Source: Devosia ginsengisoli
GTDB lineage: Bacteria; Pseudomonadota; Alphaproteobacteria; Rhizobiales; Devosiaceae
Length of the DNA: 64,000 nt
NCBI RefSeq assembly: GCF_007859655.1
Contig: NZ_CP042304.1
Location: forward strand, 3,908,501-3,972,500
Reading direction: 5' to 3'
The translations under genes were made by a program, and so were the position numbers. How positions within the stretch are numbered: position 1 is the first letter of the stretch; each line of letters opens with the position of its first letter. The notes below the pieces were generated by a model, which did no database searches, was not told the DNA's origin, and was given only the letters and a program-made list of their open reading frames with translations. Positions 39,318-60,937 of the stretch are shown here, in pieces.

Positions 39318-40433
39318 TTACGCGTCCTCGCGCTTCATGCTGCTCGTGGATACGGTCTTCATCGGTACATCGAGGCGCAGGCCGGATAGGCGATCGAAGC
39401 TCTGGATCAGTTGGGGTGGAAAGGTCAGCCACATTGTGTTGCCGTCGATTTTGTCATCGCCTGGCGGCAATACCACGGCGACTTCGCTGCCATCGAGGTT
39501 GCAATAGGCTACCCGCGAACCGCCCAGTTCTTCGACCAGATCGACAGTTGCCGGCAGGCCCTGTCCCTTCACAGCCGATAGCGCAATATTTTCGGGGCGG
39601 ATACCTATGGTCAGCGTGGTGCCAGCGAGCAGGGTCGATTGTCCTATCGCCACGTCGTTGGCAATGCCGTCCAGCGTGACCTTGCCGCCCAGGCCAACGG
39701 TGGCTGGCAAAAGGTTCATCGCCGGCGCGCCCATGAAGCCGGCGACAAAGATCGAGGCGGGGCGGCGATAGACCTCGGCGGGCGAGCCGATCTGCTCGAT
39801 ACGGCCGGCATTCATGACGATCAGCGTATCGGCCAGGGTCATGGCCTCGACCTGGTCATGGGTCACGAAAATGGAAGTGGCGTTGAGGCGTTTGTGCAGG
39901 CGCTTGATCTCGATGCGCATCTGCACGCGCAGCAGGGCGTCGAGATTGGAGAGCGGTTCGTCGAACAGGAAGACATCGGGTTCGCGCACGATGGCCCGAC
40001 CCATGGCAACACGCTGGCGCTGGCCGCCGGACAGTTGCGCCGGGCGGCGGTCGAGATAATCGGTGAGGTTGAGGATTTTGGCGGCGTGATCGACGCGCAT
40101 GTCGCGCTCGGCAGCAGGAAGCCTGGCGAGGCGCAGCGGGTAGGAAATGTTCTGCCGCACTGTCATGTGCGGGTAGAGTGCGTAATTCTGGAACACCATG
40201 GCGCAGCCGCGGTCGGCCGGCTCGATGTCGTTCATCACGGTGCCGCCGATGGCGATGGTGCCCGCAGTGATGTCCTCGAGGCCGGCAATCATCCGCAGCA
40301 GGGTCGACTTGCCACAGCCCGAGGGGCCGACGATGACCACGAAATGGCCGTCGGGCAGGGCAACATCGATGCCATGTAGCACGGGCTTGCCGTCATAGGA
40401 TTTCTTGACGTTGGTGATCGTGACATCGGCCAT
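39318..40433 (-). CDS. ABC sugar/glycerol-phosphate importer ATPase (UgpC/MalK type)
   Basis: A 371-residue ATPase of the CUT1 group. Walker [14 protein letters not shown]-loop [11 protein letters not shown], signature [14 protein letters not shown], Walker [14 protein letters not shown] and switch His [11 protein letters not shown] are intact. The C-terminal regulatory OB domain (GIRPENIAL) is present. The start shares a base with the phosphatase stop (TGATG) and has GGGAG upstream. Last gene of the six-gene operon 39318-45189; by homology it would energise uptake for both binding proteins in the region. Confidence 0.94.
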
Positions 40434-41170
40434 CAGAATTCTCCCACAAGGCGGTTGCGCAGGCGTTCGATCGTAATCGGTGTCAGTCCGATGCGCTCGA
40501 TATAGGCAGCGATGGAGCCGAACTCGGCAGTGATGAAAGCAAGGGTGGCGGCCATGGTGGCGGGCTCGGAGGCCAGCAGGCGCTGGAAGCTCGCGGGGTC
40601 GGCGCCACGCGCCACGGCGCCAGCGGTGATGTCGGCGACGATCGGCGCGATGAGGCGTGCGGTCAGCGCATAGTCCTCGACGATGAGCGCGGGTTCCACG
40701 CCGGCAATCCCGAGCAACAGGGCGGCGACGATGCCAGTACGGTCCTTGCCGGCGGTGCAATGGAAGAGGACGGCACCGGGTGGGGCGTCGGCGATGATAC
40801 GCAGCACCTGCGCCAGCGCGGGCTGCCGCCGCATAAGCGCGAGCTTGTAGAGTTCGAGCAATACGTCGCCCTCGTCCATCTGGGCAGGAGCCAGGCCATC
40901 GAGCAGGGAGATGTTGTGATAGATGACCGCAGTATGTCCGTTGAATGGATTGGGCTGATGGGTCAACTCATCGCCGTGCCGGAGATCGATGACGGTGGTG
41001 ATGCCCGAGGCGAGCATCGTTTCTACCCCTTCCTCGTCGAGCCGGTGTAGGGCGTCGGCGCGGAGCAGGCGGCGCCAGCGGGTCTGGCCGCCGGATGTGG
41101 CATAGCCGCCTAGGTCGCGGACATTATAGGTGCCCTTGATGGGCAGGTGACGGGTGGGTGCGGGTTGCAT
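40433..41170 (-). CDS. Tyrosine-phosphatase-like protein (Y_phosphatase3), copy 1
   Basis: A 245-residue protein with the CX5R phosphatase loop [10 protein letters not shown] (about residue 133) and the N-terminal NVRDLGGYA plus DLRHGDE typical of the Y_phosphatase3 family (PF13350). The general-acid Asp is not certain. ATG 41170 overlaps the permease stop as TGATG; longer forms are rejected. Finding a phosphatase inside an importer operon suggests it dephosphorylates the imported compound or a product of the phosphodiesterase. Similar to the copy at 45911-46645. Confidence 0.88.
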
Positions 41171-42045
41171 CAACGGATTCCGGATTTCATGAAGGATTGG
41201 ACGACCTGACGCTGCAGGACGATATAGATGACGAGAACCGGCAGGCTGGCCAGCGTGGAGGCAGCCATGAGCGGTCCCCATTGGTTGCCTTCGGCGGTCA
41301 TGAACATCTGGATGCCGATCTGGACGACGCTGTTTTCGGCTGTGCGGCTGAGCAGCAGAGGCCAGAAATACTCGTTCCAGGTCGAAATGAAGATGAGGAT
41401 GGCCAGCGAGGCGATGGTGCCGCGCAGGTTGGGCACCAATACCTCCCACAGGATGCGCCAGTTGCTGGCGCCATCCATGCGGGCGGCCTCGATAACTTCC
41501 CTGGGGAAACCGCGCATGGCCTGGGCCAGCAGCATGATGGCGAGCGCCGCGGCAATATTGGGCAGGATGAGCGCAAGCACGCTATCGAGCAGGCCCATTT
41601 GCGCGATCAGCAGGTAGTTGGGGATCATCACCACCTGGAAGGGGACCAACCAGGTGAGCGCCACGGCGGTATAGACCAGCTTGTCGAGCGGGAACCGCCA
41701 GCGGGCAAAGGCGAAAGCGGCCAGAATGCCGGTCAGCAATTGGAAAACGGTCGAAACCGCGGAGAAGACCAGGGTGTTGACCAGCATCCGTGCGATCGGG
41801 ATGGCGTCGATGGCGCGGGTGTAGTTGTCGAGCGAGGGCTGGGTCGGCCAGAGGCTGGTTTCAAACAGCGTATTGGCCGGGCGGAAGGAACTGACCAGCA
41901 TCCAGTAGACCGGAAACAGGCAGAAGATCGACAGCAGCACCATGAGCAGGTGGCCCGCGGCCGTGTTGAGGCCGGATTGGGTCGATATGCGACGCAGAGT
42001 GGCGGGCCGGGCCAGGGCCGGGCGGGCAAGAGCATCAGTTGTCAT
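41170..42045 (-). CDS. ABC importer permease (UgpE/MalG type)
   Basis: A 291-residue inner-membrane permease with about six helices and the EAA loop EVIEAARMDGASNWRILWEVLVP at about residues 193-215 for ATPase contact. It overlaps the other permease by 11 bases and the phosphatase by three. CUT1 family, second permease of a heterodimer. Confidence 0.94.
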   Translation of the reverse strand: MTTDALARPALARPATLRRISTQSGLNTAAGHLLMVLLSIFCLFPVYWMLVSSFRPANTLFETSLWPTQPSLDNYTRAIDAIPIARMLVNTLVFSAVSTVFQLLTGILAAFAFARWRFPLDKLVYTAVALTWLVPFQVVMIPNYLLIAQMGLLDSVLALILPNIAAALAIMLLAQAMRGFPREVIEAARMDGASNWRILWEVLVPNLRGTIASLAILIFISTWNEYFWPLLLSRTAENSVVQIGIQMFMTAEGNQWGPLMAASTLASLPVLVIYIVLQRQVVQSFMKSGIR

Positions 42046-42954
42046 GGAAGGAATACCTGTCGATCAGGCGGAACAGCACAAAGGCCACGACGCCGAAGCC
42101 AAGGAAGAGAATGACCGCCGAGGCCGAGCCCCAACCCACCGACATGGTGGAGAAGCCAAAATCCCAGAGCAGGTAATAGATATTGGTAGTAGCCCCGAGC
42201 GGACCGCCCCCGGTCAGCACGTTGATATAGGTGAAGCTCCATTGCGCGCCGAGCAGGATGGTCATGACCACGAGGAACAGCACGGTGGAACTGAGCAGCG
42301 GCAGGCGGACGTCGCGGATGATTTCCCATTTGCCGGCGCCGTCCATGCGGGCGGCTTCGATCAGCGTCGGATTGATGTTGGCGTTGGCGGCCGAAAGGAT
42401 GAGGGTGGAAAAGCCCATCAGCTTCCAGCCGGTAATGACGATGACGGTCCAGATGGCGACATCGGGATCGGAGAGAAACTTCACGGGATCGAGACCCATC
42501 CCCTTGATGGCCTGGTTGGTCAGGCCATAGCTGGGATCGAGCAGCCAGCGCCATACGGCGGCGGCTACGACCGGCGCGATGATCATCGGCACGAAGATAA
42601 TGGCGCGGTAGATGTTGCGCCAGCGCTCGGGCAAGTCATGGGTATAGATGGCGATGGCCAGCGGAATGAGCACGGCCAGCGGCAGCAGGCCGAGAATATA
42701 GACGCCGGTATTGCGCAGGGCCTGCCAGAACTTGGGCAGGGCGAAAATGCGCTGGTAATTTTCCCAGCCGACAAAGATCTGCGGTGAGGTGGGCAGCATG
42801 TTCCACTGGTAGAAGCTGAGCCGCATGGCATCGACCAGCGGCCAGTAAATCCACACGACCAGCGTAATCAGGGCGGGGGCCAGGTAAAGCCAGGGAGTCC
42901 AGCGCGCGTTGCTGACGCGTCGCAGGCGGGTCGGGGGGTGGAAGCAACCGCCAT
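42035..42954 (-). CDS. ABC importer permease (UgpA/MalF type), frame broken near start
   Basis: The main frame carries a permease with EAA loop LIEAARMDGAGKWEIIRDVRLP and about six helices. Its natural start is ATG 42954 (MAVASTPR, AGGAG site) in another frame. The frames join if the C run at 42938-42933 (minus strand) is seven rather than six long, giving MAVASTPPTRLRRVSNARWT and then the first helix LYLAPALITLVVW. As written, translation could only start inside that helix (GTG 42856), which would remove TM1. A one-base error or phase variation is likely. It pairs with the permease at 41170-42045. Confidence 0.85.
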
Positions 42955-42981
42955 GGCGCGGCTCCTATATGAGAGAGTGGC

Positions 42982-43003
42982 TGGCCCGCCCGCAGGCGGG
43001 CCA
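42982..43003 (-). promoter_or_regulatory. Intercistronic hairpin after binding-protein gene 1
   Basis: TGGCCCGCC and GGCGGGCCA form a perfect 9-bp stem with a CGCA loop, six bases after the binding-protein stop, with no T run. Such hairpins protect upstream mRNA and allow the binding protein to be made in excess over the permeases. Confidence 0.7.
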
Positions 43004-43009
43004 AGGGGA

Positions 43010-44299
43010 TCAGGGCATCAAGGCCTGGGCATTGGCCTGGGCATCGGCCAGGGTGGCCGCGACATCGGCGCCGCCGAAGACCGACATTTCCACCGCGTCC
43101 ATCATGGTCTTGCCGATCTGACGGTAGTTCGGGCCGGGCATCGGGTCCCAGGGCTCGAGACGATCGAGCTGCTCCAGATTGGGGGCAACCAGCGGATGCT
43201 CGGCGACCCAGCCGGCGAGATAGTCGGGATCGGTGACGATGGCCGGGCGCAGGGGCAGGTAGCCGATTTCCGAGGTGATGATGGTATAGCCATGCTCGGA
43301 GGTCAGGAACTTCATCAACTCCCAGGCGGCGCGTTGCTTGAGCGGGTCGGCGGTGTGGATGGTGAGGGCGCTGCCCGAATTGTTCGGGCGGGTCGGCTTG
43401 TCGCCGAAGCGCGGCATGGAGGACGAACGCAGCTCGTAATTGCCCTCGGCGCCGGCCACCAGCGAGCCCTGCAATGCGCTGGTCTGCAGGTACATGCCCA
43501 GATTGCCCGAGGCCATGCCGTCGATGGCGCCGGCAAAGTCGTAATTTTCGTAGACGCCGGCATCGTAGAGGTCGCGCAGCATGGTGACGGCCTCGACCGC
43601 TTCCGGCTCGGCGAATTTCAGCGTGGTGCGGTCGCGCGAGATCACTTCGCCATTGTTGGAGCGCACGACGCCCTGGAACAGCCAGTCGACTGCGCCCGGT
43701 CCGGTAATGCCTCCGGTAAAGCCTTCGGCGTCGGTCTTTTCCTCGATGGCGAGAGCCGCCGATTTGACGTCCGCCCAGGTCTGTGGCGGATTGTCCGGAT
43801 CAAGGCCGGCCGCGCGGAAGAGGTCGGCATTGTAGAACAGGATCGGCGTCGAGAATGTATAGGCCAGGCCATAGGTCTTGCCGTTCAGCACGCCCAGCTT
43901 GGTGCCGTTGGGATGCATGCCTTCGAGATGGGCGGCGATTTCCTCGGCGGGGGCAATGTCTTCCAGCGCCCGGGCGCCGAAATTGGTCACCGAAAAGTCG
44001 AGATCGCTGAACACGGTCTGGACCAGGTCAACCGGCATGCCGGCGGCCAGGTCGGCCTGGATGCGGCTGCCGTCGGCGCTGGAATAGCCGATACCCTCGA
44101 CGGTGACGTTCGGGTTGGCTTCCATGAATTCGTCGATCAGCTTCTGCGTGGCTTCGGCACCGAGGCCGGCAGTGGCCAGATTGTAATTGTAGAAGGTGAT
44201 GGTGACGGGCTGGTCGAGGCTGGGCGCCATGGTCTGGGCGAGCACGGGAGCAGCCGTGGAGAGCGCCAGCAAGCTGGCAAGGATGGTCATGCGGAGCAT
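43010..44299 (-). CDS. ABC solute-binding protein (extracellular family 1), copy 1
   Basis: A 429-residue periplasmic binding protein. MLRMTILASLLALSTAAPVL plus A is a Sec signal (cut before QTMAPS), no lipobox. The mature part has the family-1 layout: VTITFYNYNLATAG, GRIQADLAAGMPVDLVQTVFSDLDF-like hinge, YGLAYTFSTPILFYN and PGPNYRQIGKTMMD near the end. ATG 44299 has AGGA nine bases upstream; an ATG at 44317 overlaps the phosphodiesterase stop but has no site. Likely ligand a glycerophosphodiester or sugar phosphate, by context only. Confidence 0.92.
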   Translation of the reverse strand: MLRMTILASLLALSTAAPVLAQTMAPSLDQPVTITFYNYNLATAGLGAEATQKLIDEFMEANPNVTVEGIGYSSADGSRIQADLAAGMPVDLVQTVFSDLDFSVTNFGARALEDIAPAEEIAAHLEGMHPNGTKLGVLNGKTYGLAYTFSTPILFYNADLFRAAGLDPDNPPQTWADVKSAALAIEEKTDAEGFTGGITGPGAVDWLFQGVVRSNNGEVISRDRTTLKFAEPEAVEAVTMLRDLYDAGVYENYDFAGAIDGMASGNLGMYLQTSALQGSLVAGAEGNYELRSSSMPRFGDKPTRPNNSGSALTIHTADPLKQRAAWELMKFLTSEHGYTIITSEIGYLPLRPAIVTDPDYLAGWVAEHPLVAPNLEQLDRLEPWDPMPGPNYRQIGKTMMDAVEMSVFGGADVAATLADAQANAQALMP

Positions 44300-44313
44300 G
44301 GTTGTGGTTCCTG

Positions 44314-45189
44314 TCATTCAGCAGCGGCGACGGCGGTGTCGGCTTCGTATTTCTTCAGCATCTCGGCCATGCCGGAGAAGGTGAAGCTGTGCAGTTCGCG
44401 ACGGGTGGCCGCCTGCGGCGCGAAGGTGATGGTGAGACCCGAGGGCCGCACGGTGCCGATGGCGAAGGCGGCGCCTTCGAGCATGCGCAGGCCTTCATGC
44501 AGCCAGAGCACGTCGGTGGCGGCATGCTGGCCGATGCCGACAACGGCGGGGATGCCGTACCAGTTGGATACGCGGTCGTAGTGGATATGGCCCGAGAGGA
44601 TGCCCAGCACGGTCTTGCCGGCGACGGCCTGGCGCAAGGCCTCGGTATCGGCGTAGGACAGCGATTCCCACTCCATGGTCGGGTTGTGCGTATCGAGCGC
44701 CGGCGCGTGGTGCATGACGAGCAGCTTGGGCAGCGCGGCATGGTTTTCGAGTTCGGCCTTGAGCCAGTCGAGCTGGCCCGGCTCGAACGAACCGCCGACC
44801 TTGTCGGGCACGCTGGAGTCGAGAACGATGACGTGGATGCCGGCAATGACTTCGGCATGGTCGTAAGGGGCATCGACATTGTCGGTGCGGCCGAGCATAG
44901 CCGGATAGAAGCCGTCGCGACGGTCGTGATTGCCCAGCGCATAGAGGACCGGCATGTCGAGGCCGGATTCCGCCACGATCGACTTGAGGTTTTCGTAGCT
45001 GCCCTGGTCGCCGCGGTTTGTCAGGTCGCCGCTGGCGACGATGAATTTGGGCTGAGGCACCAGCGTCTTGATGTCCGCCAGGATGCGCCGCAGCGTCGTC
45101 GTGGTGTCGGAGAAAAGATGATCATCCTGCACGGCGGTATTACCGACATGCAGGTCGGTCAGATGGATGAAAGTGACGGGGTCGGACAT
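44314..45189 (-). CDS. Calcineurin-like metallophosphodiesterase (GpdQ/CpdA-like), copy 1
   Basis: A 291-residue metallophosphoesterase with all family motifs: IHLTDLHVG (Asp, His), SGDLTNRGD, GNHDRRDGF, VMHHAPALD and SGHIHYDR. The pattern matches class III cyclic-nucleotide or glycerophosphodiester phosphodiesterases (CpdA, GpdQ). No signal peptide, so the substrate is cleaved inside the cell after import. ATG 45189 has GGAGAG upstream. First gene of the operon; a TetR gene is divergent across a palindrome. Confidence 0.92.
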   Translation of the reverse strand: MSDPVTFIHLTDLHVGNTAVQDDHLFSDTTTTLRRILADIKTLVPQPKFIVASGDLTNRGDQGSYENLKSIVAESGLDMPVLYALGNHDRRDGFYPAMLGRTDNVDAPYDHAEVIAGIHVIVLDSSVPDKVGGSFEPGQLDWLKAELENHAALPKLLVMHHAPALDTHNPTMEWESLSYADTEALRQAVAGKTVLGILSGHIHYDRVSNWYGIPAVVGIGQHAATDVLWLHEGLRMLEGAAFAIGTVRPSGLTITFAPQAATRRELHSFTFSGMAEMLKKYEADTAVAAAE

Positions 45190-45316
45190 GGGCGCTCTCC
45201 TTGCTCTGGTGGGGTCCAGCGGCAAAATTTTCGCTGTAACTCTTTGTGGCGCATAAGTTTTGTTACAAACATCTTGTGTGGCGCCTTCGTTAGGGTTAGC
45301 TTCCCTCCATGACAGG

Positions 45317-45334
45317 TGAATGAAGGTTCATTCA
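45317..45334. promoter_or_regulatory. TetR operator
   Basis: A perfect 8-2-8 palindrome, TGAATGAAGGTTCATTCA, immediately before the tetR start at 45339 and within the divergent promoter region of the importer operon. Confidence 0.8.
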
Positions 45335-45338
45335 GTTT

Positions 45339-45905
45339 ATGGATGTTGTCCTCGACAAGCGTGAGCGCATACTAGCAGCGGCCGCACGGCTCATCGTTCG
45401 CAACGGCTTGCAGTGCTCCATGGCCGCGATCGCCGAAGAGGCAAGCGTGGCCACCGGCTCGCTCTACAATTACTTCGACTCCAAGGAAGCGCTGGTGCTG
45501 GGCGTCTATACGCGCGTCACGGCATTGATGACCGAGAGCCTCGTGACCCCGTCCGGCGGGGATAGCGGCGAAGAGCCGGTGCGCCGCTATATCGAGAGCT
45601 ATATCGACTTCATCTGGGAGGATCCCGACCGGGCGCGGCTGTTCGATTATCTCGACAATAATCCACTGATTACCCTGAGGGACGCCAAGGCCATTTTCGG
45701 CGCCTTCGTCGAGCACGGCATCGCCATGATCGAGGCGGCGCAGGCTGCGGGTGTGGTTCGAGCAGGCCCGCCGACCATGATCATGAGCTTCATGCGCGGG
45801 TCCATCCGCAATACGCTGAAGCGCCGGCGCATGACCGAGACCAGGCTGACAGATGCCGACCGACAGCTTGTGGCCGCCATGTGCTGGGCCGCCATCGCCG
45901 CCTGA
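45339..45905 (+). CDS. TetR-family transcriptional regulator of importer operon
   Basis: A 188-residue TetR protein with HTH (MAAIAEEASVATGSLYNYFDSKEALVLGVY, about residues 28-57) and a short ligand domain with LTDADRQLVAAMCWAAIAA at the end. ATG 45339 follows the palindrome by four bases, so repression would be direct. It should control itself and the divergent operon starting at 45189; inducer unknown. Tail-to-tail with the second phosphatase gene, five bases apart. Confidence 0.93.
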   Translation: MDVVLDKRERILAAAARLIVRNGLQCSMAAIAEEASVATGSLYNYFDSKEALVLGVYTRVTALMTESLVTPSGGDSGEEPVRRYIESYIDFIWEDPDRARLFDYLDNNPLITLRDAKAIFGAFVEHGIAMIEAAQAAGVVRAGPPTMIMSFMRGSIRNTLKRRRMTETRLTDADRQLVAAMCWAAIAA

Positions 45906-45910
45906 GGCGG

Positions 45911-46645
45911 CTAGGCACATAGGCGGTCGGCCAGCAGGGCCACCTCGGAGCGCGTCAGCCCGATTCCAGCAAGGTAGGCGTCGATGCCACCATGAGCGAT
46001 GTCGAGATGGTCGAGCATGACCAGCATGGTCGCAGCATCGCTGGCAAGCACGCGCTCGACATGTTCGGGCCGGCCGCCAGCTGAAAGCGCGCGCTCACGT
46101 AACTGGCCGATCAGGTCGTCCGCTGCGGCGGTGAGCGCATAGTCGGCGACGATGTCGGCGCGACCGACGCCGGAAATCAGCAGCAAGAGCGCGGCAATGA
46201 TGCCGGTGCGATCCTTGCCCGCCGTGCAGTGGAACAGGACGATGCCGCGCGGCGCGGCGATGACGGCGCGCAGCACCTCGGCGAGTTGCGGGCGGCATTT
46301 ATCCAGGGCGTCGCAATAGCGCCGCGCCATGTCGAAGGGCACCGCGCTCATGGCGATGGGCGCCAGGGCGTCAAACAAGGCGATGTTGCGGTAGGCGACC
46401 GTGGCGTGCTCGCGAAAAGGATGCGACGTAAGACTGGTCTCATGCGGCCCGCGCAGGTCGATGACCAGCGTCAGGCCATCCTCGACCAGTCGAGCGATGC
46501 TGTCGTCGCGCAGGGGATGCAGGGCCTCGCCCCGCAGGATGCGACGCCATTGTGTAGCGCCGCCGGTGATGCGGGCATAGCCGCCCAGATCGCGGATATT
46601 GTGGGTGTCGGGCAAGGGCCAGTGACGCATCGCCGCCATGGTCAT
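45911..46645 (-). CDS. Tyrosine-phosphatase-like protein (Y_phosphatase3), copy 2
   Basis: A 244-residue homologue of the protein at 40433-41170 with the same [10 protein letters not shown] loop, NIRDLGGYAR and DLRGPHE motifs and similar length. ATG 46645 has GGAGG seven bases upstream. It is the last gene of the small operon tetR2-phosphodiesterase 2-binding protein 2-phosphatase 2. Role as for copy 1. Confidence 0.88.
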   Translation of the reverse strand: MTMAAMRHWPLPDTHNIRDLGGYARITGGATQWRRILRGEALHPLRDDSIARLVEDGLTLVIDLRGPHETSLTSHPFREHATVAYRNIALFDALAPIAMSAVPFDMARRYCDALDKCRPQLAEVLRAVIAAPRGIVLFHCTAGKDRTGIIAALLLLISGVGRADIVADYALTAAADDLIGQLRERALSAGGRPEHVERVLASDAATMLVMLDHLDIAHGGIDAYLAGIGLTRSEVALLADRLCA

Positions 46646-46672
46646 GGCTGCCTCCGTTCAGTCGAAAGAGAT

Positions 46673-46693
46673 GGGCGCGGCACGGCCGCGCCC
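46673..46693 (-). promoter_or_regulatory. Intercistronic hairpin after binding-protein gene 2
   Basis: GGGCGCGGC and GCCGCGCCC form a 9-bp stem with an ACG loop, nine bases after the binding-protein stop, mirroring the hairpin at 42982-43003 in position though not in sequence. Confidence 0.65.
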
Positions 46694-46701
46694 GGTCGGC
46701 A

Positions 46702-48001
46702 TCAGGGCATCAGGCCCTGGGCATTGTCCTGGGCGAAGCTCAGCACTTCGGAGACATCGCCTTCACCAAGCACGGCTTCGACGACTGCCTCCTTCATCAT
46801 GGCCTCGGCCTGGCGGTAGTTGGGGCCGGGGAAGGCAACATTGGGAGTGAGCCGAGACAGCTGTTCCAGGTTCGGACGGATCAGCGGATGGGTTTCGGTC
46901 CACGGACCGAGAAAATCCGGATCGTCGACGATATCGAGGCGCAGCGGCAGGTAGCCGATCTTGCTGGTGATGATGGTGTAGCCGTATTTCGAGGTGAGGA
47001 ACTTCATCAGCTCATAGGAGGCGCGCTGCTTGACCGGGGCCTTGGAGAAGCTGAACAGGGCGCTGCCCGAATTGGTCGGGGTGGTCGGTTTGTCAGCGAA
47101 GCTCGGCATGGCGGCGACGCGCAGCTCCCAATTGCCTTCGGCAGCGGTCGAAAGGGCGTTCTGCAAGGCGCTGGTATAGAGATACATGCCCAACTGGCCG
47201 CTCAGCATGGCATCGTTGGCGCCGGCAGGGTCGATCCGGGCATGCGCGCCGCTATCGACCATGTCGCGCAGCATCCGCACCGCTTCGATGCCTTCGGGAT
47301 TGGCGAAGGTCAGGGTGTTGCCGTCGCGGACATTGCCGCCATTGGACATCAGGATGGCCTGATAGACGAAGGTGCCATCGGCCGGGCCATAGGCGCCGGG
47401 GAAGAAGCCTTCGGCATCGGTCTTTTCGACGATGGCTTCGGCCGCGGTCTTTACCTCGGCCCAGGTCTTGGGCGGATTGTCGGGGTCGAGACCGGCAGCA
47501 CGGAACAGGTCTGCGTTGTAATAGAGGATCGGGGTCGAGAAAGTGTAGGCAAGGCCATAGGTCTTGCCGTCGACCTTGCCGAGATCGAGGCCGCGGGGGG
47601 ATCATGCCGTCGGTCAGCTCGGCATAGCCGTCCGAGCCGGCCATGTCTTCCAGGGCATTGGCGCCCAGGTCGCTGGCGACGTAGATTAGGTCGCGAAACA
47701 CCAGTTGGGCCAGGTCGGGCTGCTGGCCAGCGGCCATATCGGCCTGCAGACGCGTTCCGATCTCGTTGGACGGCACGCCGATGGTCTCGACCGTGATATT
47801 GGGGTTTTCTTCCTCGAACCTGGCCAACAGTTCGCGTGTGGCGTCGGCGCCAGCGCTCGCGGTGGCGAGGTTGTAATTGTAGAAGGTGATGGTCACCGGT
47901 TCGGTGATGTCATCGGCCATTTGGGCGAAGGCCATGCCGGAAAGGGCGGTAAAGCCCAAGCCGGCGGCGGCCAGCAGCTTGATGAAATTGCGTTTGATCA
48001 T
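46702..48001 (-). pseudogene. ABC solute-binding protein (family 1), copy 2, frameshifted
   Basis: The signal MIKRNFIKLLAAAGLGFTAL plus SGMAFA and the N-terminal lobe are in one frame (to DGMIP), the rest (GLDLGKVDGKTYGLAYTF... to AQDNAQGLMP) in another. The break is the C run at 47600-47595 (minus strand): five Cs instead of six would give a continuous protein of about 432 residues aligned throughout with copy 1. ATG 48001 has AAGGA eight bases upstream. Otherwise intact, so a sequencing error or phase-variable run is more likely than old decay. No permease accompanies it. Confidence 0.85.
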
Positions 48002-48026
48002 CGGTGGGGTCCTTGGAGTTGGGAGA

Positions 48027-48881
48027 TCAGCCTGCGGCGGCGTCGGCCAGGGCAGCTTCCTGCTTTTGACGGAGGAGCTTGAGGTCGTAGCGATTGAGTT
48101 CGGCTCGGGTCTGGGGCAGGGGCACCAGAGCCATGGTGAGGCCGGAGCGGCGGATGGTACCGATGCCGAACGAGGCGCCTTCCACCATGCGCAGCACATC
48201 GGTGGTGAGAATGTCGGTGGCGGCATGCTGGCCCATGCCGACGATGACCGGAATGCCGTGCCACACCGAGAAGCGGTCGTGGTGGATATGGCCGGAGAGA
48301 ATGCCCACCACATTGCGGCCCCTGAGCAGAGCCGCGAGCTGCTGGGACTGATTGAACTCGATAGTTCGCCAATGGTCCCAGGGCGGGGTATCGCCAAGCG
48401 CTGGGGCGTGATGGGCGACGATCAGCTTGGGCAGATCGGCATGGCTGTCGAGCGCGGCTTCGAGCCAGGCGAACTGTTCGGGCTCGATACTGCCTCCGAT
48501 CTGGCCGGGCGTGGTGGTATCGAGGGTGATGACATGCACCGCTTCGATGACCTGCTCGTGATCGTAGGGCAGGTCGAGGGCTTGGGTCTGGCCGAGCATG
48601 CCCTCGTAGAAACCAGCGCGGGTGTCATGGTTGCCGATGGCATAGACCACGGGCAGGTCGGTGGCGGCCATGATGGCCTTCAGCTGGCGGTAGCTGTCGG
48701 CGTCGCCGCGATTGGTCAGGTCGCCGCTGGCAATGATGAATTTGGGCGCCTGGTCCATGCTGGCGATCAACTCGAGCACCCGGGCCAGCGTCCTGGACGT
48801 GTCGCTGAACAGATGGTCGTCAGCGACGGCGGGGTTGCCGACATGCAGGTCGGTGATATGGATGAAACTGGTCTCGGCCAT
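48027..48881 (-). CDS. Calcineurin-like metallophosphodiesterase, copy 2
   Basis: A 284-residue homologue of the protein at 44314-45189: IHITDLHVGNPAV, SGDLTNRGDADSY, GNHDTRAGF, VAHHAPALG and SGHIHHDRF are all kept. Cytoplasmic. The start has GGAG about eight bases upstream. Followed after 25 bases by the second binding protein gene. The two enzymes differ enough to have diverged in substrate. Confidence 0.92.
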   Translation of the reverse strand: MAETSFIHITDLHVGNPAVADDHLFSDTSRTLARVLELIASMDQAPKFIIASGDLTNRGDADSYRQLKAIMAATDLPVVYAIGNHDTRAGFYEGMLGQTQALDLPYDHEQVIEAVHVITLDTTTPGQIGGSIEPEQFAWLEAALDSHADLPKLIVAHHAPALGDTPPWDHWRTIEFNQSQQLAALLRGRNVVGILSGHIHHDRFSVWHGIPVIVGMGQHAATDILTTDVLRMVEGASFGIGTIRRSGLTMALVPLPQTRAELNRYDLKLLRQKQEAALADAAAG

Positions 48882-48925
48882 GGGTCGTGCTCCGTTGCTG
48901 GAGCATGGCCTAGGCCCCTACCGTC

Positions 48926-49609
48926 TCAGCGACGTGACGAGTTTGGAACAACGTTTGAATTGGTCGAAGGTGGTGTGGTGAACATCGGTGTCGTCGCCGC
49001 GACGACCTGTTCAAGCACGATCAGGGGATCGTCCAGGTTCAGCGCATGGCTGGTCAATTCGTCGGTACGGCGCCGGTTACGCGTCATCTGCGAGCGAACG
49101 CCCAGCAGGCAGGAGATGCGGAAGCCGATATCCACGTCGCTGAGCCAGGGCGCAATCGTTCGGAAGTGCGGAATGAACACGCGGTGATGATCGATGTCTT
49201 CGATCATGGGGCGGAATATCTCGGGGTGTTCGCTGGACTGGGCCAGGTTGGTCATGTGTCGCAGCACGTTATAGCTGGATGCTCGATCGAGGCTCCAGCG
49301 GATGGACGGGCCGACCATGGCGACGATAAGGTCTTCGATGCTTGCAGGTGCCGGATGCGCCCGCTGTACCGCCGCCTGCAGCATTGCCAGTCGCTCGGCG
49401 TTCAGCTTCATATAGACCCGCTCGGCCACTGAAAAGATCAGTTGCTCGACACTTCCAAAATGATAGCTGACTGCACTGACCGCAGCGCCCGCCCGCCGCG
49501 CAATGCTCCGGACAGTAACTTCGTCTGGGTGATCAGCAGCATTGAGCAGCGCCTCGCACGCAGCCTGCAGCTTCTCTGCCGTGACGCTCTTGTTGGTTTC
49601 CCGCCGCAC
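48926..49609 (-). CDS. TetR-family transcriptional regulator of second module
   Basis: A 227-residue TetR protein: HTH VRSIARRAGAAVSAVSYHFGSVEQLIFSV (about residues 33-61), then a ligand domain and a Ser/Asn-rich C-terminal tail. The start is GTG 49609 with a weak site. It is upstream of and in line with the second phosphodiesterase gene (44-base gap), unlike the divergent TetR of the first module, and is not closely similar to it. Confidence 0.88.
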   Translation of the reverse strand: MRRETNKSVTAEKLQAACEALLNAADHPDEVTVRSIARRAGAAVSAVSYHFGSVEQLIFSVAERVYMKLNAERLAMLQAAVQRAHPAPASIEDLIVAMVGPSIRWSLDRASSYNVLRHMTNLAQSSEHPEIFRPMIEDIDHHRVFIPHFRTIAPWLSDVDIGFRISCLLGVRSQMTRNRRRTDELTSHALNLDDPLIVLEQVVAATTPMFTTPPSTNSNVVPNSSRR

Positions 49610-50722: not shown

Positions 50723-53693
50723 ATGCAGGGAAGCCGTTTTTTCCGAACAGTTTTGCCGTCCCGCCGGTCTCTGCTCCTGTCGGCGGCGCCCTTCGTCGTG
50801 GCGCTGGCGGCGCTCTCGCCGGCATCGGCGCAAGTCTTCATTGGCGGGGACAGCACGCCGTTAAATCCTGCGCTCGTCGACGGCAGCGTCGACCTGGAGA
50901 TTGGTGTGAACGGTTCGGGTGACCTGACCATTCTCAATGGCGGCGTATTGACCAATAATACAAGTTACGTCGGCAACGATGTGGGGGGCATCGGCGTCGC
51001 AATGGTCTCGGGCCAGGACTCGCGATGGAACAATCTGGGCGACGTTGTCATCGGGCAGTATGGCAATGGAACGCTCGATATTCTTGCCGGCGGGTTCGTC
51101 AGCGGGGAGACAGGCTATATAGGCGCTAGTCCGGGCGGCATCGGTGTCGTGACGGTTTCAGGCGAGGATGGCTCAGGCAATGCTTCCGCCTGGTCTCTTC
51201 AGCAAGGTCTGAACATCGGACAGGAGGGGGACAGGTACGCTGAACGTCGCACAGGGCGGTCGCGTCACGACCGTCGGCCGAATCAGCGTTGGTTCCTGGG
51301 GAACAGGCAATATTGAGCTTTCCGATAGCGCCACGGTGTCGAGCGATGACGCCATCATTGGCGTCGTCGGTTATGGAGAAGCCCTCCTGACATCGGGCGC
51401 GGCCTGGACCGTGGCGGAACAGTTCACGGTCGGTCTGGTCGCCCAAGGCGTTCTGCGCATTGAAGACGGCGCCAGCCTGACCAGCAACCAGGGCTATGTG
51501 GGTGCCAATGCCGGTGGCGACGGCAATGTGACTGTCACCGGGGGCGCGAGCTGGGAGATAACCAGCTTTAATCTCAACCTCGGCAATTACGGCGTTGGGG
51601 AGATGACCATCGAAGATGGCGCGCGGGTTTACGCCAATAGCGGCGTCGATCTCGGCATATCGGATGTGACGGCCAGCGGCACGCTGAATGTACTGGGCAC
51701 GCCGGGTGCGCGCGGGGTGCTGGAAACCAGTGGTTTCCAGGGCGGCATAGGCACCGCAAATGTCACCCTGGATGGCGGCATTGTTCGCGCCATCTACGAC
51801 AACACGAATTTTTTCAGCAATTACGGTGCCCAGCAGGTCACCCTCGACGCCGGCGGCGGTATCATCGACACCAATGGGCACGATATCGGCATCGCCCCCG
51901 TCATGACCGGGACGGGCAGCCTGACCAAGGAAGGGCTGGGCACGCTGACTCTCACCGGCGCCAACACGTATGGCGGTGGCACGACGATCGCGGCCGGCAC
52001 TTTGCAACTGGGCAATGGCGGCACGAGCGGCAGCATTTTGGGCAATGTCGCCAATAGCGGCGTCCTGGCTTTCAATCGCTCGGACGCGGTGACCTTTGGC
52101 GGGACGGTCAGCGGGACGGGTGGCGTTTGGCAGGTCGGCACCGGGCAGACCACGCTCAGCGCCAATAGTGCAGCCCTGTCGGGCGTCTCCAGGGTCTATG
52201 ACGGCATTCTTTCGGTCGATGGCACGCTTGGCGGATCGTTCGAGGCCATAGGCGGACGATTGCAGGGCATCGGCCAGGTGGGGGCGACGACGAATTTTGC
52301 CGGTGGCACCATCGCCCCGGGCAATTCGATCGGCACGCTGACCGTGGCCGGCAATTATCTCGGCAATGGCGGTACGCTCGAAATCGAAACGGTGCTGGGC
52401 GACGACAGTTCGGCCACCGACCTGCTGGTCGTGACCGGCGACACGGCCGGCAGCACCAATGTTCGCGTCATCAATCTCGGCGGCCTCGGCGCACAGACCA
52501 CTGAAGGCATCAGGATCGTCGATGTCGGTGGCGTTTCCGGCGGCGATTTCACGCTTCTGGGGCATTATGCCTTCGAAGGAGCGCCCGCCATTGTCGCCGG
52601 CGCCTATGCCTATCGTCTTCATCAGGGCGGCGTCAGCACGCCCGCCGACGGTGACTGGTACCTGCGGTCGGCCCTGGTCAATGGCACGACCCCGACCGGG
52701 CCGCTATATCAGGCCGGCGCCCCGATTTACGAGGCCTATGCGACGGCACTGCAGAGCTTCAACGACCTCGAAACCTTGCAGCAGCGCGTCGGCAACCGGT
52801 CCTGGACGGGTGGTGGGGTCGAAGCGGGCGCTGTGCCCGAAGCGGCCGACCCCAATAGCGGCATCTGGGGCCGCATTGTCGGCCACCACGCCAGTCTCGC
52901 CCCCCGGTTCACCACGACCGGCGCGGACATCGATGTCGGCACCTGGCAATTGCAGGCCGGTGCCGACCGGCCACTCTATTCGCACGAGCAGGGCACTCTG
53001 GTCGGCGGGGTTTCAGCGCGATACGGCACCATTGCGGGCGACGTCACTTCGATGTTCGGAAACGGTTCGATCAGCAGCACCGGCTATGGCCTGGGCGGAA
53101 CGCTGACTTGGTATGGTTCGGGCGGCTTTTACCTCGACGCCCAGGCGAACGTGACCTGGTATGACAGCGCGCTCTCTTCCGCCACCGCGGCAACCAGCCT
53201 GGTTTCGGGCAATAATGGCTTCGGTTACGCCCTCGGCGTCGAAGCCGGCCAGCGGATCGCGCTGGCGCCGAACTGGTCGATCACGCCACAGGCGCAGCTA
53301 ACCTATTCCGATGTCCGCCATGATGGCTTTACCGACGCCTATGGTGCCGCTGTTTCGCTGGTCGAAAGCAATGACCTCAATATCCGGCTGGGCCTTTCGG
53401 CCGACTACCAGGATAGCTGGACCGATGCGTCCGGCGAGACCAGCCGTCTCCATGCCTATGGCATCGCCAATCTCTATTACGACGTTCTGCCGGACAGCAG
53501 GACCGACCTTGCCGGGGTGGAACTGGTAAACACCCAGGACAACCTCTGGGGCGGCCTCGGGATCGGCGGCACCTATGCCTGGGGCGACGATAAATACGCC
53601 ATCCACGGCCAGGGCAGCGCCAATACAAGCCTCGTCAATTTCGGCAACAGCGTCAGCCTTGCCGGCACGGCCGGGCTCACCGTCAGATTTTAG
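50723..53693 (+). pseudogene. Type V autotransporter, one frameshift
   Basis: A large autotransporter of about 990 residues in two frames. The first part (from 50723) has the signal MQGSRFFRTVLPSRRSLLLS...ASAQ and repeats such as GSGDLTILNGGVL and GNGTLDILAGGFV. The break is GGGGG at 51226-51230: four Gs would give NIGQEGTGTLNVAQGGRV and continue to the end. The passenger has PATR beta-strand repeats (GLGTLTLTGANTYGGGTTIAAGTLQLG region). The C-terminal barrel (from about 52850, SGIWGRIVGHHASL) ends in TAGLTVRF. Surface adhesin role by family. Isolated from other genes, beside a decayed regulator. Confidence 0.85.
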
Positions 53694-53811: not shown

Positions 53812-54162
53812 TTATCGGACGACCACGAAAATCTTCCGAATTGTCTCGATCGTTTTCCAACGTCCGGTAAAGCCGGGATTGAGGACGAAATTGTCGCCTG
53901 CGCGGTAGGTTGCGGTCTGGTCGCTCCCGTCGGGGGTGATCTCAGCAACCCCCTCAAGGATATGGCAGAACTCAAAGGCTTCGCCTTTAATCGATTTGTA
54001 GGTGCCGGGCGTTGCTTCCCATACACCGACTTCGACATTGCCTTTGGCTTGCGCCTGCAACCAGGAGGTGAAGAGCGGATTGCCTTCGATGAGGCGGTCA
54101 GCTGCGGGTGCGCCGGCTACGCCTTCAGTTGTCGGCCTGGTCTCGATCGTCTGTATTAGCAT
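53812..54162 (-). CDS. Cupin (EutQ/DUF861-like) protein
   Basis: A 116-residue single cupin: GVWEATPGTYKSIKGEAFEFCHILEGVAEITPDG is motif 1 in a diverged form (no clear HxH triplet) and FVLNPGFTGRWKTIE motif 2. Cupin_3 proteins often accompany amine and ureidoglycine metabolism. The start overlaps the oxidase stop (TAATG), so it is cotranscribed with the DadA-like gene. Confidence 0.87.
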   Translation of the reverse strand: MLIQTIETRPTTEGVAGAPAADRLIEGNPLFTSWLQAQAKGNVEVGVWEATPGTYKSIKGEAFEFCHILEGVAEITPDGSDQTATYRAGDNFVLNPGFTGRWKTIETIRKIFVVVR

Positions 54163-55499
54163 TAGTGTCCACTCTGTCGGTTATGCTTGCGAACACCCCA
54201 TGCACGGTCGATATCGTCGCGCATGCGGTAATAGCTTCCCACCATCGGCAGGAACCAGGTATCGCCATTGTAAAAGGGCAGGCCCGGGAAACGGTGTTTC
54301 TCAAAGGCACAGCTGTAGTCGCGCGCCTGGGCAACTTTCCGGGCAGTCTGGTAGCCTAGATAGGTCATCATCGAGATGCCGCTGCCATTGCAGCCCATGC
54401 AGTAATGCAGGCCGTCGATCTTGCCCATGTGAGCGGTCGCGTCGAGCGTAAAGCCCAGCAAGCCGGACCACGCATAGCTGACCTTGACGCCCTCGATCTG
54501 TGGAAAGCGCTCCACCATTGCCCTCTGCAGCAGCATGCCGATCTTTTCTTCACCGACCTGCGTGAAACGCGCGCGGCCCCCGAAAATAACGCGCGTCCCG
54601 TCGGGCGAAGGTCGGTAATAGTAGAGCACGCGCTTGCTGTCGGAGATCATCTTTCCCTTTGGAAACAGCTCCTTCATCGTGCTTTCGGGCAGCTTTTCGC
54701 TGGCGATGATATGGCTGGCAACAGGGATGATGCGCTTGCTGAGCGCCGGGGTGACCGCCGAAGTATAGCCATTGGTGGCGACAATGACGTCATCCACCAG
54801 GCATGCGCCGGCCGAGGTGGTCACCTTCCATAGCTTGCCCTGCTGCTCCAGCTTGGTCACCGGCGTGTTCGAGATGAACTGAACGCCGCGGCGCAGGCAG
54901 GCCTCGATAAGCCCTTTCACGTAAAGGGCCGGCTGGATCGTGGCACCGTCATCGGTGACCATGCCGCCGAAATAATAGTCGCTGCCCACCTCGCTGCGCT
55001 GCTCTTCGCGTGACAGAACATAACTGTTCGTCGCAGTCGTCGAATTGAGCTCGGCAGCGCGTTTGCGCATATCTTCGTAGTGGCGGGGCGTGGCGGCGCC
55101 GACAAACCGGCCGGCATGGCGCAGCTTGCAGTCGATATTTTCTTCTTCGATGAGCTTGAGGACCAGGGGGAAGGCCTGGGCCGCATCAGTGCGAAGTTCG
55201 CGGATGACACTGCTCGGCAGGGTCTGCTTGCCGGTGAAGCTCTTGCCGATGCCGAGCGCCGCGCCCACGCCGCCGCCATTGCGCGAGCTGGCGCCCCAGC
55301 CGATCTCCCTGGCGTCGACCACCACAACCTGAACGTTCCGCTTCGAGAGCTCCAGCGCTGCCGAGAGCCCCGCAAAGCCCGAACCGATGATCAGCACCGG
55401 GGCGCGAGCCGGCAACTCGCCTTCGCTGCGCAGGGGCGCGAAGTCTTCCCACCAGTAGCACCGGGCCTGAAAATCGTCTGCCAAGACGCTGTCTACCAT
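54162..55499 (-). CDS. DadA-like FAD-dependent amine/D-amino-acid oxidase
   Basis: A 445-residue DAO-type flavoprotein. LIIGSGFAGLSAALELSKRN is the FAD loop (about residue 36) and WGASSRNGGGV the second contact, as in gamma-glutamylputrescine oxidases (PuuB). GLHYCMGCNGSGISMMTYLG near the C-terminus completes the FAD site. ATG 55499 has GGGAG upstream. Next to a peptide-type ABC importer, it probably oxidises the imported amine, amino acid or opine. Substrate open. Confidence 0.88.
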   Translation of the reverse strand: MVDSVLADDFQARCYWWEDFAPLRSEGELPARAPVLIIGSGFAGLSAALELSKRNVQVVVVDAREIGWGASSRNGGGVGAALGIGKSFTGKQTLPSSVIRELRTDAAQAFPLVLKLIEEENIDCKLRHAGRFVGAATPRHYEDMRKRAAELNSTTATNSYVLSREEQRSEVGSDYYFGGMVTDDGATIQPALYVKGLIEACLRRGVQFISNTPVTKLEQQGKLWKVTTSAGACLVDDVIVATNGYTSAVTPALSKRIIPVASHIIASEKLPESTMKELFPKGKMISDSKRVLYYYRPSPDGTRVIFGGRARFTQVGEEKIGMLLQRAMVERFPQIEGVKVSYAWSGLLGFTLDATAHMGKIDGLHYCMGCNGSGISMMTYLGYQTARKVAQARDYSCAFEKHRFPGLPFYNGDTWFLPMVGSYYRMRDDIDRAWGVRKHNRQSGH

Positions 55500-55547
55500 T
55501 TTCTCCCTCGCAGGGTTGACAACAAAACGTCGCAATGCGCTATCTGC

Positions 55548-55582
55548 TATCGTAATGCGATTGTTTCTAACGCATATCGATA
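55548..55582. promoter_or_regulatory. Inverted repeat in oxidase/importer divergent region
   Basis: TATCGTAATGCG (55548-55559) and CGCATATCGATA (55571-55582) pair at 10 of 12 positions across an 11-bp spacer. A TTGACA lies nearby at 55516-55521. It is a candidate operator for the IclR protein at 60938-61738 or another regulator. Confidence 0.5.
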
Positions 55583-55615
55583 ACTTTTCGAGTGCGCAAT
55601 AGGGAGTGGTATTGG

Positions 55616-57232
55616 ATGAAAAAGGGAATGGGCCGCTTGACGGCGGCTTTGGTGCTTTCGGTCACGACAGCGGGACTGGCCCATGCATCGGTGCTCACCA
55701 TGTGTACCGAGGGCAGTCCGGAGATTTTCAATCCCCAACTGTCGAACAATGGGGTGACCGCCAACGTCCTGAGCCAGATTTACGATAATCTGGTTTCGGT
55801 TCGGCAGTCGGACCTCTCGATCGAAGCCGCGCTGGCTGAATCCTGGGATGTCTCCGAGGACGGCAAGACCTATACCTTCCACCTTCGCAAAGGGGTGAAC
55901 TGGCAGTCCAATGCCGACTTCACGCCAACCCGCGAATTCAATGCTGACGACGTGATCTTCAGCTTCGGCCGCATGATGGACCCCTCCCACCCGTTCCACG
56001 AAGTGAGCGGCGGCGCCTATATCGGCTTCATCAACAAGCTGGGAGACAATCTCGAAAGCGTTGAGCGAATTGACGACTATACCGTCTCGTTCACCCTCAA
56101 GCGCCGCGATGCGACCTTCCTCGGCGTCATGGCTTTCCAGCCGATGGGCATTATTTCGGCGGAATACGGCGCCGCGATGCAGGCCGTCAATTCCATGGAA
56201 AAGGTCGATCGCCAGCCTATCGGCACGGGTCCTTTCCAGCTCGAGCATTTCCAGCAGGATGCGCAGGTGCGCCTCAAGGCGTTCCATGAAACCTGGGGCG
56301 AAGCTGCAGGCCGCGCGGACAAGTCACCCCTCGTGGACACTGTCGTGATGCTGATCACCCCCGACGCCTCCACCCGCGTCCAGCGGGCCCTGGCCGGGGA
56401 ATGTCATATCGCCCTTTACCCCAACCTTGCCGATGCGGACATCATCCGTGGCAGCGACAAGGTCGACCTAGTCGAAACCGAAACGGCGTCCACTGGTTTC
56501 CTGACCTTCAACTTCCGCGACGAGCGCTATCAGGATGCGCGCGTACGCGAGGCACTGACGATCGGTCTGGACATCGAGCGCCTTACCGATGTCGTTTACC
56601 AGGGCATGGCCCAGCCGACCGTGGCGATCATCCCCAACACGTTCTGGGGGCACAACGCCGATCTCGAAGTGCCCTCCTATGATCCGGAACGCGCCAAGAC
56701 GCTGCTCGCCGAGGCCGGTTTTGCCGATGGTTTCGAGACCGATGTATGGGCGCTCCCCGTCGTCCGGCCCTATATGCCGAACGGCCGCCGCGCTGCTGAG
56801 ATCATCCAGGAGGACTGGAGCAAGCTCGGCGTGAAGGTCAACATCGTCACCTATGAATGGGCCGAGTATATCGAGCGCGCCCGCAATGGCGAAGGCCAGG
56901 TCGCTATGTTCGGCGGCATCTGGGACTATCCCGATCCGAGCCAGATTCCCAACAGCTACCTGTCTTGCGATATCAACGGCAAGCCGAGCCCGTCCAATAT
57001 CGGTGCCTGGTGCAATGACGAGTATAATTCGATCCTGCGTCAGGCTTCCGAGTCCACCGATCAGGTCGAGCGCGAAGCTCTCTACAAGGAACTGCAGGCC
57101 GTATTCGCACGCGAAAAGCCGGCGATCGCCTTCGCCTCTTCGCCGACGCTGACGGTCATCTCCAACTCTGTAGATGGCTATCATCCGGCATCGGTCGGCA
57201 CGTCCTCGCTGGCCGGCGTGAGCCTCAAATAA
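55616..57232 (+). CDS. Peptide/amine ABC binding protein (DppA-type, SBP_bac_5)
   Basis: A 538-residue periplasmic protein. [20 protein letters not shown] plus LAHA is a Sec signal. The mature domain has [33 protein letters not shown] and [19 protein letters not shown], the family-5 signature region, as in DppA, and a Cys pair late ([10 protein letters not shown]...WCNDEY). Start ATG 55616 has GGGAG upstream. Ligands of this family include dipeptides, haem, opines and nickel; the neighbouring oxidase suggests an amine or opine. Confidence 0.92.
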
Positions 57233-57238
57233 TATCGA

Positions 57239-57266
57239 TGCCCTCCGGCGCTTGCGCTGGAGGGCA
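57239..57266 (+). promoter_or_regulatory. Intercistronic hairpin after binding-protein gene
   Basis: TGCCCTCCGGCGC and GCGCTGGAGGGCA pair over 13 bp with one wobble, a two-base loop and a TGTTTTCC tail. Lies six bases after the binding-protein stop and before the permease; partial termination or mRNA protection is likely. Confidence 0.7.
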
Positions 57267-57297
57267 TGTTTTCCTTCAGGCACGGAATTCAAGGCAG

Positions 57298-58299: not shown

Positions 58300-58312
58300 C
58301 ACGGTGAGCAAA

Positions 58313-59227: not shown

Positions 59228-59230
59228 GCC

Positions 59231-60909: not shown

Positions 60910-60937
60910 TTCAAAACCGCTTGGAGAGTGCACGAAC

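Follow-up and report, generated by a model that had tools for sequence, protein, structure and literature searches.

Why should an ABC importer keep a phosphodiesterase and a phosphatase in its own operon? The question is raised by a locus of the soil bacterium Devosia ginsengisoli (contig NZ_CP042304.1; genome of 4.48 Mb) within a 64-kb stretch of DNA that was analyzed as a whole and is called the window below. Here, six genes on the minus strand, running from 45189 to 39318, encode a class III (calcineurin-like) phosphodiesterase (PDE), a solute-binding protein (SBP), permease 1, permease 2, a phosphatase of the Y_phosphatase3 family (PTP), and an ATPase, in this order, and the regulator gene tetR1 is transcribed divergently. 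Neighboring genes overlap at four of the five junctions (PDE/SBP, permease 1/permease 2, permease 2/PTP, and PTP/ATPase). Thus the coupled operon described in the initial annotation stands, with all its parts in place, except that the PTP start is corrected to 41170 (245 aa) and the permease 1 frame is broken. The operon is, however, only half of the locus: the annotation overlooked a second module at 45911-49609, as well as a Pho-box-like site overlapping the TetR operator and the presence of the system on plasmids.

Proposed Function

The most plausible answer is that the operon probably serves the scavenging of phosphorus (and carbon) through import of a phosphodiester, its cleavage in the cytoplasm, and dephosphorylation of the product. 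Judging from the gene content, the SBP would capture a small phosphodiester in the periplasm, and the CUT1-type ABC importer would bring it in intact. The cytoplasmic PDE would then cut it into an alcohol and a phosphomonoester, from which PTP, of the atypical lipid phosphatase family, would remove the phosphate. We infer import of the intact diester because no signal peptide is apparent on PDE or PTP by inspection and both genes are linked to importers, and the monoester step because a phosphomonoesterase of some fold is frequently, though not constantly, present. TetR1 may act as a repressor at its operator, which shares bases with a Pho-box-like activator site, and expression would need both phosphate starvation, acting through PhoB, and an inducer, perhaps the monoester formed by PDE. 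The second module would provide another receptor-plus-enzyme set for a related diester, borrowing the permeases and ATPase of the first.

Conservation and Distribution of the Operon

A scan of genome contigs with PDE yielded 20 loci, distributed over Devosia, Brucellaceae, Chelatococcus, Rhizobium, and Microvirga. Most of the closest loci belong to Devosia, the nearest being a metagenome-assembled genome labeled D. ginsengisoli that is 96% identical over 11 kb. The six genes occur in the same order with a divergent tetR1 in 18 of the 20 loci, two of which (L003 and L015) have frame breaks. The initial annotation had made its pathway depend in part on a conserved neighborhood in relatives, and the neighborhood is indeed conserved. 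In Rhizobium mayense (L018), the PDE-SBP pair appears twice within one operon. L022 retains only partial PDE and SBP genes. Beside this remnant, the translations read as an independent importer set with diesterase and phosphatase: an ABC importer accompanied by a GDPD-like gene, plus a divergent IMPase-like gene (L022:2328-8198).

The same six-gene order was seen on plasmids of Agrobacterium and the Sulfitobacter group. Among 397 sampled genomes of the order, the system is sporadic: operon-type PTP (>350 bits) was found in four genomes and operon-type PDE (>350 bits) in six, and all four genomes with both carry them in one operon; the remaining two PDE genomes are those of L089 and L107. Some of the carrier plasmids are typed as conjugative, and IS21 and Tn genes adjoin some of the operons. 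The sporadic occurrence, the plasmid location, and these mobile neighbors together suggest horizontal transfer of the system.

At the level of the class, a PTP match (E <= 1e-25) is present in 35 of 385 sampled genomes. We examined 33 stretches covering 34 of the 43 PTP places outside the window. For most of these PTPs, hidden Markov models (HMMs) detected neither a PDE nor an SBP nearby; PTP scores in the full list run from 91 to 156 bits. Only L076 and L101 show a linkage, in each case to a PDE that has diverged beyond the reach of the HMM.

The Two Enzymes

PDE combines a Metallophos domain with all the metal-ligand motifs of class III phosphodiesterases (D-x-H, GD, GNHD, H, and GHxH). The corresponding residues, D12/H14, G54-D55, GNHD86-89, H160/H161, and GHIH200-203, are invariant in 20 aligned sequences. 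By inspection of the sequences, no signal peptide was seen on PDE or PTP, and a cytoplasmic location of PDE is predicted, in line with the cytoplasmic calcineurin-like enzyme initially proposed. The solved structures nearest to PDE are Rv0805 and then 2dxl, 2zo9, and 3d03, which we take to be GpdQ. It is not CpdA or SpdA proper, scoring 67.7 bits against a cut-off of 225 (NF008359) and 78.9 against 400 (NF050112), respectively. PDE thus shares metal-site motifs and fold family with CpdA, SpdA, Rv0805, and GpdQ, but it differs in lying below the CpdA and SpdA cut-offs and in being linked to an importer.

The CX5R phosphatase predicted from the window is confirmed by its Y_phosphatase3 match, and the loop is identical, letter for letter, in PTP and its second copy PTP2. 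At E <= 0.001, the genome has no PF13350 match other than these two proteins. The P-loop HCXXGKDR[TA]G fits all 18 aligned PTPs, 17 of which share one sequence form and one of which has HCSAGKDRTG. The excerpted text of PMC3091653 gives this P-loop for the atypical lipid phosphatases (MptpB, Lmo1800), a family that acts on phosphoinositides; by this signature, missed in the initial annotation, PTP belongs with them. The loop is also common to Pho16B, a family member with phytase activity and a signal peptide according to the excerpt of PMC6409689, whereas PTP, with no signal peptide seen, is encoded in an importer operon.

Importer and Binding Protein

The Pfam composition of the importer (SBP_bac_1/8, two BPD_transp_1 domains, and a MalK-type ATPase with OB/TOBE domains) places it in the CUT1 class, as initially assigned. 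Its components resemble Ugp to different degrees. The ATPase exceeds the NCBIfam cut-off for UgpC. The permeases are UgpA/E-like but fall far under their cut-offs, and the SBP scores only 60.5 bits against the cut-off of 411 for the UgpB equivalog NF008211. With the roles of the Escherichia coli UgpB pocket positions taken from the excerpt of PMC12718374, two phosphate contacts, Ser144 and Tyr346, are identical in the SBP, Ser270 is replaced by Thr, and Tyr65 is absent. Among the glycerol contacts, only Gly307 is kept, Glu89, Trp192, and Arg397 not being conserved. MalE has none of Ser144, Ser270, Tyr346, and Gly307.

The predicted structure of the SBP (predicted local distance difference test, pLDDT, 87.5) is nearest in fold to CMMBP, UgpB, MalE3, and dinucleotide-binding proteins. 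In this ranking, only a few Z units separate sugar binders from phosphate binders, so that the fold does not decide the ligand. Elsewhere, the genome encodes two UgpB proteins over the cut-off and one UgpB-like/GDPD pair, and hence the operon is not its only glycerophosphate route. The pair (G000:C1:3836402-3838354) consists of a UgpB-like SBP (228 bits, below the cut-off) with a GDPD gene directly after it.

Regulatory Region

The TetR operator, read towards PDE, is TGAATGAA-CC-TTCATTCA, with perfect 8-bp arms and a 2-bp center. In the form TGAATGAA-NN-TTCATTCA, it is present in all 18 intergenic regions compared, which rules out a chance palindrome and bears out the initial prediction of a divergent TetR with a perfect operator. 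Three plasmid operons bring the operator-bearing regions to 21. The footprint in these regions includes TGAATGAAC in every case and the full right arm in all except L048. TGTCAT lies at a fixed distance in 19 of the 21 regions, the variants being TGTCAC (L053) and TGTTAC (L049), and a TA ten bases beyond this position is invariant. The operator was not found in the regions of L051, L052, L054, L059, L062, L068, L089, and L123.

The direct repeat CCTTCAT-N4-CTGTCAT in the same region has two mismatches to the general Pho-box consensus. A search of the 4.48-Mb genome gave 16 sites with at most two mismatches, including that of the operon, and with up to three mismatches 215 sites versus 82 for a control pattern. 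Similar patterns precede cpdB, a PhoR-like kinase gene, ugpB, and phnG. The ugpB and phnG sites, chosen by eye, deviate from the consensus at three positions, and the kinase scores 290 bits against a cut-off of 334, its site being also covered by a long opposite frame. The cpdB gene (L136:1501-3017), behind its Pho-like box, encodes a CpdB-like 2',3'-cyclic nucleotide phosphodiesterase with a twin-arginine translocation (TAT) signal. In Phaeobacter MED193, Table 1 of PMC10132767 lists, under adjoining locus tags, a predicted phosphodiesterase and the ATPase from a sugar ABC set as induced by phosphorus starvation and undetected in a phoB mutant.

The Second Module

Behind tetR1, on the minus strand, TetR2, PDE2, SBP2, and PTP2 form a module with neither permeases nor ATPase. 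It recurs in 8 of the 20 loci, seven from Devosia and one from Chelatococcus. In seven of the eight relatives, SBP2 is one open frame of 431-434 aa, L015 being the exception. We built trees for 41 PDEs, 38 PTPs, and the SBPs. PDE2 and PTP2 fall together with the plasmid operons L051, L052, and L063 of Rhizobium and Sinorhizobium (support 100/98, L089 included, and 100/99, respectively). Inside this PDE clade, the branching order is weak (88/71). The PDE and PTP of module 1 group with TetR1-type operons (96/97 and 91/97). The SBP tree leaves the origin of module 2 undecided. Recent tandem duplication is ruled out by this placement of PDE2 and PTP2. Since the plasmid operons have the order TetR-PDE-SBP-permease-permease-PTP, module 2 looks, from these groupings, like an operon of this type that lost its permeases, and it would use those of module 1.

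Rearranged Versions in Other Bacteria

Additional versions were chosen by hand and are examples, not frequencies. In Pseudosulfitobacter pseudonitzschiae (L054) and Sulfitobacter alexandrii (L059), overlapping PDE and PTP genes stand behind an Opp-type importer with two ATPases. The SBP of the former is of the SBP_bac_5 type; the set of the latter adjoins a Na/Pi cotransporter and ugpB. Two Actinomycetota, Arthrobacter (L068) and Microbacterium sediminis (L123), share the order RpiR-ATPase-SBP-PTP-PDE-permease-permease, and Dietzia (L122) has the same RpiR-headed set with no annotated PDE. In L051, L052, and L063, the PDE-SBP-permease-permease-PTP series has no neighboring ATPase. Other phosphatases also occur. 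Nitratireductor (L062) combines a PDE of the same superfamily and a CUT1-like importer with an EEP phosphatase. In Martelella (L125), such a PDE is divergent from a CUT1-like importer and the phosphatase is annotated as HisN. In Rhizobium 007 (L126), where RpiR genes are present, an ABC ATPase fragment precedes a PDE gene that overlaps one for a HAD phosphatase.

These arrangements allow a broader, tentative reading that we regard as possible: a conserved importer core that accepts receptor-plus-enzyme cassettes for organophosphates, mobile on plasmids and across phyla. Each cassette (PDE-SBP or TetR-PDE-SBP-PTP) would bring its own phosphodiester, to be cut inside the cell, and could be re-fitted to an unrelated Opp-type importer or to another phosphatase fold. 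The promoter would work as an AND gate: the TetR operator would cover the Pho box in its upstream half, and PhoB could act only once the specific inducer has removed TetR.

Which diester would be imported? Flanking genes viewed differ between lineages and none names a substrate, and the two KduI/IolB matches (inositol-type genes) in the genome are not near the operon. RpiR regulators with SIS domains respond to phosphosugars, and their presence in the actinobacterial versions hints at a phosphosugar effector. Our guess is a glycerophosphodiester with an inositol or sugar head. Inositol is suggested by the substrates that the excerpts of two papers give for the phosphatase family: phosphoinositides (PMC3091653) and, for one member, phytate (PMC6409689). 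Taken by itself, inositol is a doubtful candidate.

Alternative Explanations

CUT1 importers mostly carry sugars, and the operon might be an ordinary sugar importer with signaling enzymes attached: an unphosphorylated oligosaccharide would be imported, PDE would lower cAMP, and PTP would act on proteins. The top structural match of the SBP, a binder of cyclic maltosyl-maltose, and the PDE-importer sets without a phosphatase in L127, L130, and L131 agree with this. Yet the PDE-PTP pair also stands behind Opp-type importers (L054 and L059), other phosphatase folds replace PTP (L062 and L125), PDE and PTP are repeated together with SBP2, the TetR operator overlaps a Pho-like site, and the UgpB-type Tyr is absent from two sugar-binder alignments; we consider a sugar importer improbable. 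It is highly improbable that the operon is simply another UgpBAEC for glycerol-3-phosphate or glycerophosphocholine. An ATPase at the UgpC level and a UgpB-like SBP would fit, but the SBP score of 60 bits against 411, the loss of the glycerol-holding residues Glu89, Trp192, and Arg397, and the two UgpB proteins already present in the genome argue otherwise. We also think it unlikely that the imported compounds are products of RNA breakdown (2',3'-cyclic nucleotides or short dinucleotides), which PDE would open or cut and PTP would finish.

For phosphodiester scavenging speak the conserved neighborhood, its recurrence with other importers and phosphatases, and the agreement of the Pho-like site and the SBP pocket; this much of the pathway proposed initially has gained ground. 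Several observations weigh against it. PDE-importer sets with no phosphatase seen exist in L061, L127, L130, and L131; in L089, PTP is missing from a set of PDE, SBP, permeases, and ATPase, and L014 has tetR1, PDE, SBP, and both permeases, with PTP and ATPase not detected in the remaining 2.8 kb. L107 has only PDE in 10.7 kb, with no importer, and the PDE relatives of L060, L124, and L128 have none in the stretch seen; conversely, PTP relatives occur without PDE in L065, L066, and L067. The PDE relative of L129 lies beside iron-type importers, which suggests that members of the PDE superfamily also act on imports of other kinds. In that locus (L129:2523-12774), the gene is placed between two such importers with a siderophore receptor adjoining. 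The SBP does not conserve Tyr65 of UgpB, and the SBP of L076 has Gly in place of Ser144. According to the excerpt of PMC4222275, sequence does not reveal the specificity of class III phosphodiesterases. As for PhoB control, with five downstream proteins scanned, only 3 of the 16 best Pho-like sites were seen before phosphorus genes: those of cpdB, of the PhoR-like kinase, and of the present operon, provided that it counts as such. The fifth protein scanned, from L140, matches SBP_bac_8. In its first half, the Pho-like box of the operon cannot be told apart from the TetR palindrome. Finally, the Phaeobacter SBP of the set mentioned above is still induced in the phoB mutant in Table 1 of PMC10132767, and the Phaeobacter phosphodiesterase is likened to PDE by its annotation only.

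Features of the Locus and Neighboring Genes

Table 1. Genes and sites of the two modules in the window
Feature	Coordinates	Strand	Evidence and remarks
PDE, calcineurin-like phosphodiesterase of class III, 291 aa, heads the operon	44314..45189	-	Pfam Metallophos 57 bits
SBP, UgpB-like CUT1 solute-binding protein, 435 aa	43010..44317	-	SBP_bac_8 101 bits; also SBP_bac_1
GC-rich hairpin, SBP/permease 1 gap	42983..43002	-	folding z-score -2.0
Permease 1	42035..42954	-	BPD_transp_1; open from GTG 42856; probable true start 42954
Permease 2	41170..42045	-	BPD_transp_1
PTP, Y_phosphatase3, 245 aa	40433..41170	-	PF13350 200 bits
ATPase, UgpC type	39318..40433	-	ABC_tran, OB_MalK, TOBE_2; NF008653 500 bits versus cut-off 432
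TetR1, divergent regulator	45339..45905	+	TetR_N 50 bits
TetR operator TGAATGAA-NN-TTCATTCA	45317..45334	.	found in 18/18 regions compared
Pho-box-like direct repeat CCTTCAT-N4-CTGTCAT	45309..45326	-, reading towards PDE	overlaps TetR operator
PTP2, second Y_phosphatase3, module 2	45911..46645	-	PF13350 170 bits
SBP2, module 2	46702..48001	-	one frame break, C-run 47595-47600
PDE2, module 2	48027..48881	-	Metallophos 56 bits
TetR2, heads module 2, same strand	48926..49609	-	TetR_N; TetR_C_30 just under its cut-off

A GC-rich hairpin lies in the one spaced junction of the operon, between SBP and permease 1; in five chosen relatives, the same gap also folds into a hairpin, each time of differing sequence (z-scores of -0.95, -2.7, -4.1, -4.3, and -3.7). 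The frame of permease 1 is lost near the N-terminus in a C-run at 42933-42938; in 17 of the 18 relatives shown, L003 being the exception, this N-terminus is open. The C-run breaks in permease 1 and SBP2 may be real or may be sequencing errors. L015, the nearest locus, has 87 gap openings over the 11 kb and many frame breaks.

Further along the plus strand, the translations point to an autotransporter-like gene, apparently split into frames 50723-51316 and 51336-53693 (together 50723-53693), and, within 54162-61738, to a Dpp/Opp-type ABC operon (SBP, two permeases, and two ATPases) followed by an IclR-like regulator, together with an FAD oxidoreductase gene encoded on the opposite strand.

Relation to Known Systems and Significance

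Glycerophosphodiester uptake by UgpBAEC with the GDPD-type enzyme UgpQ is the classical case of this kind. It has in common with the Devosia operon a CUT1 importer, a UgpC-type ATPase, a cytoplasmic phosphodiesterase, and phosphorus scavenging. Here, however, a calcineurin-like PDE takes the place of GDPD, a dedicated phosphatase is added, control is by TetR, and the SBP has lost most glycerol contacts. The Acc system of Agrobacterium, as presented in the excerpt of PMC4526662, handles agrocinopine with the importer AccABCDE, the phosphodiesterase AccF, and the phosphatase AccG, and resembles the Devosia operon in import of a sugar phosphodiester, its cleavage, putative dephosphorylation, and plasmid location. 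The roseobacter variant (L054) likewise uses an SBP_bac_5 importer, whereas the SBP of the window is of the SBP_bac_8/1 type. AccA is presumably an SBP_bac_5 protein with an Opp-type importer, and AccF, AccG, and AccR presumably belong to families different from those of the enzymes and regulator described here. The overall logic is the same as that of Ugp-UgpQ and Acc, with other enzyme families. Going by the rows of Table 1 in PMC10132767, the Phaeobacter set (MED193_11288, MED193_11293, and MED193_11308) also has a phosphodiesterase locus tag adjacent to a sugar-type ABC importer and induction by phosphorus starvation, but no phosphatase is listed beside it there. Among the papers listed in searches of the open-access literature, we found no description, as a system, of this set of families, its receptor-enzyme modularity, the importer and phosphatase swaps, or the overlap of the TetR operator with a Pho-like box. 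To our knowledge, no such system has been described before.

Dissolved phosphodiesters are a source of phosphorus for soil and marine bacteria, and we know of few described routes that import and then cleave them. The gene kit identified here is a concrete, transferable candidate for such a route, whose binding protein, two enzymes, and regulatory site are each open to assay. If the prediction is true, an atypical lipid phosphatase would have a nutritional role rather than one in host attack, and the gene set, common to some plant- and algae-associated bacteria, would probably represent a route in the phosphorus cycle.

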